Shown in pieces: positions 46,936 through 51,168 of a DNA stretch of 64,000 nucleotides; the first letter of the stretch is position 1, and each line of letters starts with the position of its first letter. The DNA comes from Rhododendron vialii (Eukaryota > Streptophyta > Magnoliopsida > Ericales > Ericaceae). The stretch covers positions 43,166,501-43,230,500 of the forward strand of contig NC_080557.1 of NCBI RefSeq assembly GCF_030253575.1, in the 5' to 3' direction. Position numbers and translations under genes: made by a program. The notes below the pieces were generated by a model. It was given only the letters and a program-made list of their open reading frames with translations, had not been told where the DNA came from and did no database searches.

Positions 46936-51168
<4,233 letters not shown>

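Follow-up and report, generated by a model that had tools for sequence, protein, structure and literature searches.

The window analysed here, a stretch of 64,000 nucleotides from Rhododendron vialii, contains two PCNA genes lying head to tail, both on the minus strand, and one of them, copy 2, encodes an asparagine at the position of Lys164; the question is whether this gene specifies a working clamp without the residue or is a spare duplicate on its way to decay. Lys164 accepts mono- and polyubiquitin as well as SUMO and is conserved in every one of the 15 species that PMC9225081 compares, which agrees with the role given to it in the earlier note. Lysine likewise occupies position 164 in all five PDB sequences among the matches listed (the best 5 of 98). 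Three of those five (2zvv, 2zvw and 6o09) presumably represent Arabidopsis PCNA1 and PCNA2. In the spliced models the exons of the two genes are located as follows:

49606 to 49924, minus strand: copy 2 exon 1, with the ATG at 49922-49924 and a PF00705 match of 172 bits
47732 to 47884, minus strand: copy 2 exon 2, encoding the interdomain connecting loop with D122N, S123I, H125R, I128F and H134Q
47529 to 47626, minus strand: copy 2 exon 3, carrying residue 164 and a PF02747 match
46936 to 47148, minus strand: copy 2 exon 4, ending at a premature TAG (46936-46938) that removes EAKP
43767 to 44085, minus strand: copy 1 exon 1, with the ATG at 44083-44085
41647 to 41799, minus strand: copy 1 exon 2
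41446 to 41543, minus strand: copy 1 exon 3, with Lys164 at 41524-41526
40830 to 41054, minus strand: copy 1 exon 4, with the stop codon TAA

Codon 164 reads AAC in copy 2 (minus strand 47607-47609, GTT on the plus strand) and AAG in copy 1 (minus strand 41524-41526, CTT on the plus strand), and the spliced models, with the residue in register, give SVTNEGV and SVTKEGV, respectively; the replacement pointed out in the earlier note is thereby borne out. Its statement that the frame and splice sites of copy 2 are otherwise intact holds as far as the three GT/AG introns and the lack of a frameshift are concerned, but it overlooked the premature stop, as codon 261 is TAG in copy 2 where copy 1 has GAG, the terminal EAKP is absent and the protein is 260 residues long compared to 264 in copy 1. 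On inspection of the frame, this TAG at codon 261 of 264 is the only disablement seen: the frame is open to codon 260, and all six splice sites and the TATA box are kept. Copy 1 also has three introns, all GT/AG. Both PCNA domains of copy 2 score above the curated cut-offs (PCNA_N, PF00705, at 172 bits; PCNA_C, PF02747, at 91.1, 37 and 35.2 bits by exon), and residues 1-260 align without gaps to 6o09 (E 6.7e-145). The two copies are identical at 243 of 260 residues, with 16 differences besides residue 164, and at one of these, residue 70, the derived state is that of copy 1.

A search of the genome (532,647,506 bases in 13 contigs) with both PCNA domains and the copy 1 protein found four canonical PCNA genes, namely the window pair on contig C1, one gene on C3 and one on C6. 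Lys164 is encoded by AAG in copy 1 and the C3 gene and is replaced by Asn164, encoded by AAC, in copy 2 and the C6 gene, so that two of the four canonical genes are without it. The C3 gene (C3:22701752-22704064, minus strand) encodes 364 residues, of which about 100 make up a charged C-terminal tail, while the C6 gene (C6:41906605-41909836, plus strand) encodes 259 residues and combines Asn164 with the TAG at codon 261. The C6 protein has lost V181 through a 3-base deletion and carries changes that include G176V, Q184P and L126V, and it looks more degraded than copy 2. The candidate explanation of a processed (retro)pseudogene is ruled out by the three introns present in both copy 2 and the C6 gene.

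Several other PCNA-related stretches were observed in the genome. A further fragment of the C6 PCNA DNA lies at C6:41918203-41918320, and a stretch of about 130 bases in the window (5682-5812) matches, in either orientation (84% and 79%), DNA that lies approximately 3.7 kb upstream of the C6 gene. The genome also has a fifth PCNA-like locus, a divergent one, on the plus strand at L016:4503-6478, corresponding to C1:15669002 onward. Its first exon shares 30% identity with PCNA (E 1.1e-11), a second, weak match resembling an exon lies at L016:6359-6478 (E 0.03), and TTTCCCGCC occurs just upstream of the ATG; at a guess, the locus is possibly the counterpart of the bean PCNA-like1.

The two Asn164 genes have more in common than the codon itself. 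Both carry D122N, K164N, T187M and the TAG at codon 261, whereas the C3 gene has the copy 1 state at residues 122 and 164 and a serine at 187, and in introns 2 and 3 they have in common six substitutions and three indels relative to copy 1, counted without an outgroup. Since these coding and intron changes are found in both genes, K164N most likely arose once, before copy 2 and the C6 gene separated. The silent sites at codons 73 and 74 contradict such a tree, with copy 1 equal to C6 and copy 2 equal to C3. The C6 gene is nevertheless ruled out as a plain copy of the present-day copy 2, because its 3′ flank remains homologous to copy 1 past the end of the copy 2 homology (window 40043-40502 and 39758-39819) and its intron 1 resembles that of copy 1; a common Asn164 ancestor with a later loss in copy 2 would fit the sequences better.

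Copy 2 has also been altered outside its coding sequence, by two insertions in the neighborhood of exon 1. The features concerned, with no strand assigned, are:

48426 to 49590: intron 1 insertion of copy 2, 1,165 bp, with inverted terminal repeats beginning GAGAGAAAA
50055 to 51168: promoter insertion of copy 2, 1,114 bp, containing long inverted repeats and separating the TATA box from a block of E2F-like and site II-like motifs
51169 to 52053: upstream flank of copy 2 in its displaced position, homologous to 44219-45108, with the E2F-like and site II-like motifs
44219 to 45108: upstream flank of copy 1, with the E2F-like motif GCGGGAAT at -172 from the ATG and five site II-like matches

The intron 1 insertion lies 15 intron bases from exon 1 and is flanked by an exact 8-bp target duplication, AAGTAAAA, at 48418-48425 and 49591-49598; from the length of the target site we take the element to be a Mutator-like MITE. 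E2F and site II motifs are linked to S-phase expression. A scan for loose versions of these motifs, made without a control for chance matches over 1,015 upstream bases of copy 1, 2,176 of copy 2 and 2,500 each of the C3 and C6 genes, placed the five site II-like matches of copy 1, two of them overlapping, at -249 to -366, and comparable E2F-like and site II-like sites of the C3 gene at -144 to -284. In copy 2 the TATA box is still at -103, but the E2F-like motif is found at -1283 and the site II-like matches at -1360 to -1475, because the 1,114-bp insertion has pushed the block outward. The same scan of the 2.5 kb upstream of the C6 gene found no site II-like match, and the nearest E2F-like motif is at -1830. 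A remnant of a similar inverted repeat (60 bases at 78%) adjoins the C6 TATA box, and the promoter insertion is likely to be common by descent to copy 2 and the C6 gene. The two insertions of copy 2 have related direct and inverted repeats in common (families D4 and D5; pairs I4, I7, I9 and I10), which suggests that related elements may have struck the gene twice.

Whether the altered protein is still under selection was addressed through substitution counts over 257 codons, the C3 gene serving as the outgroup. Private to copy 2 are 13 replacements, all but one of them polarised, against three to five silent changes, as two of the five equal C3 and may be ancestral and another is the mixed codon 154; without selection, and at a kappa of 2, 13.1 of 18 changes are expected to be replacements. 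The C6 gene has 14 private replacements, the 14th at codon 154, and nine silent changes in addition to the 3-base deletion. In a custom codon model with the two Lys164 branches (copy 1 and C3) as background, omega is 0.025 for the background, 0.80 for copy 2 and 0.44 for C6. The copy 2 value is no different from 1 (p = 0.70) and clearly different from the background (p = 1.9e-9), while that of C6 differs marginally from 1 (p = 0.07, leaning below it) and strongly from the background (p = 3.1e-8). Profile 95% intervals, obtained with kappa, the background omega, the C3 branch and an omega of 1 on the common copy 2/C6 branch all held fixed, are approximately 0.3-2.9 for copy 2, which is wide and still has 0.3 inside, and 0.2-1.1 for C6. 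The common branch itself carries three replacements and no firmly placed silent change, and its omega lies at the upper bound of the fit, although the branch is too short for a test and not distinguishable from 1 (p = 0.43). Positive selection on copy 2 is hence unsupported, given its omega of 0.80 and a common branch no different from 1. In the introns of copy 2, 14 of 654 aligned sites are private (2.1%), compared to 18 of 771 coding sites (2.3%; the 257 codons); the C6 introns have five private changes in 654 sites, below the coding rate of that gene, a deficit that may stem from more CpG in the exons.

Copy 2 thus gathers replacements at the neutral rate and is probably under relaxed selection. 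With its promoter interrupted and the partner-binding face changed at other residues too, K164N counts as one among the 16 replacements in its lineage and as no single selected switch. Of the functional clamp without Lys164 proposed in the earlier note, the replacement is real and present at two loci, but with a dN/dS of 0.80, no different from 1, a role of copy 2 as a specialised clamp is weakly supported. The note had itself set against this proposal a dN/dS near 1 combined with no orthologue carrying Asn164; the former is what was found, with an interval that reaches down to about 0.3, and on the latter point a paralogue, the C6 gene, does have Asn164.

Some signals of residual constraint are nonetheless present in copy 2. 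The coding sequence is free of indels, whereas the introns have five private ones in about 670 aligned bases, a contrast with a probability by chance of approximately 0.021; the figure drops to 0.002 if the three indels setting copy 1 apart from copy 2 and C6 are counted as well, although some of these may be those of copy 1. The absence of nonsense changes among the 18 changes of copy 2 is uninformative (chance about 0.6). Replacements private to copy 2 tend slightly to be conservative, with a mean BLOSUM62 score of +0.38 against -0.30 for random ones (P = 0.07), whereas those of C6 are no milder than random (-0.86 against -0.36, P = 0.89). Finally, of the 16 replacements in the copy 2 lineage, seven lie within the 38 of 258 residues that form the PIP-binding face (P = 0.0035); the corresponding counts are six of 17 for C6 (P = 0.025) and three of 23 between C3 and copy 1 (P = 0.69). 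The regions of the face were set from the PCNA structure after the data had been inspected, the P values being post hoc, and the clustering is a lead only.

Loss of Lys164 leaves copy 2 within the eukaryotic PCNA family and affects a modification site only. The PIP pocket is not kept, with H44Q, L47V and I128F, where His44 and Leu47 are presumably residues of the PIP-box pocket. I128F in copy 2 and L126V in C6 further fall on Pol delta contact residues, and both L126 and I128 are reported in PMC9225081 to be always conserved among the 15 species and required for correct interaction with Pol delta. If translated, the copy 2 product should still fold as a clamp, and it should be unmodifiable at position 164 and bind PIP-box partners poorly.

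Taken together, the observations are best explained by copy 2 having arisen recently as a tandem duplicate of PCNA, being under relaxed selection and probably becoming a pseudogene, an explanation to which we assign a probability of roughly 0.68. In the order of events that we favor, the PCNA gene on C1 would have duplicated, and the new lineage would have gained K164N, D122N, T187M and the stop at codon 261, probably together with the transposon insertion in its promoter, before splitting into copy 2 and the C6 copy; copy 2 would later have taken the intron 1 insertion and 13 further replacements. Since two Lys164 genes remain, copy 1 and the long-tailed C3 gene, the loss of the residue in spare copies would cost little.

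The same data bear on whether copy 2, and perhaps C6, instead supplies an expressed subunit that forms mixed trimers, lowers Lys164-dependent damage signalling and presents a remodelled partner face. The intact frame and splicing, the lack of coding indels (chance about 0.02), the replacements gathered on the PIP face, the retention of K164N at two loci and three common replacements with no silent change firmly on that branch would all suit such a subunit, yet the copy 2 omega is no different from 1, the core promoter block is displaced, the C6 gene lacks a codon and shows no milder replacements than chance would give, and the common branch is too short for a test (p = 0.43 against an omega of 1), which together make it rather unlikely. 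A still more doubtful proposal sees in the Asn164 lineage, that is copy 2 and possibly C6, a natural expressed clamp which trimerises, is deaf to ubiquitin and SUMO at Lys164 and to PIP-box partners, and in some tissue dilutes the damage-tolerance signal on mixed rings; the PIP-face cluster and the absent coding indels would then be traces of that role.

At the other extreme, copy 2 might already be dead, an untranscribed pseudogene whose frame is intact by chance, in keeping with the neutral replacement rate, the insertion that parts the TATA box from the E2F/site II-like block and the second one 15 bases from exon 1. The coding sequence without indels and without nonsense before codon 261, as well as the kept donor and acceptor sites and TATA box, argue against it, and we consider it improbable. 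An artefact of assembly or base calling at codon 164 can hardly be entertained: a base error is very unlikely because the independent C6 gene has the identical AAC codon, along with the linked changes, and the single-base error rate of the probable source assembly, Rhododendron vialii haplotype A, is given as about 0.00021% (PMC10338486). Relaxed selection on a spare, promoter-disrupted duplicate therefore remains the most likely account, and a working Lys164-less clamp is the less probable one.

Should copy 2 be translated, it would provide a natural test of whether a plant can tolerate clamps that have no Lys164, and of the part that mixed PCNA trimers play in damage tolerance. A copy that does no more than drift would illustrate cleanly how a replication gene under tight constraint can lose even near-universal residues shortly after it has been duplicated and its promoter disrupted. 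The locus also cautions that a single lost key residue in a gene copy does not amount to a new function without a rate test.

Among the matches listed, the titles and abstract openings in the open-licence literature describe no plant PCNA without Lys164, and the nearest known systems differ from copy 2. In Phaseolus coccineus, Strzalka et al. (2010) reportedly described, beside the normal PCNA, a divergent paralogue, PCNA-like1, which is said to be about 54% identical to PCNA and without the motifs for PCNA activity; compared to this far more divergent protein, copy 2 is close to copy 1, with 243 of 260 residues identical. The C3 gene presumably resembles the long form of carrot PCNA, a long-tailed plant PCNA, from which copy 2 departs in the opposite direction, being shortened by four residues. 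Two PCNA genes have been reported in some plants, including carrot, maize and Arabidopsis (PMC4550699), and, according to PMC7761550, ubiquitination of Arabidopsis PCNA1 and PCNA2 may depend on RAD5a. Copy 2 is colinear with both Arabidopsis proteins over 255-260 residues without gaps, whereas their Lys164, His44, Leu47 and Ile128 are replaced in it by Asn, Gln, Val and Phe, respectively. Copy 2 also resembles the yeast Pol30 K164R alleles, which specify a clamp unmodifiable at residue 164 (PMC9225081), but those are engineered, whereas copy 2 is natural, carries many other changes and has two Lys164 genes as a backup.
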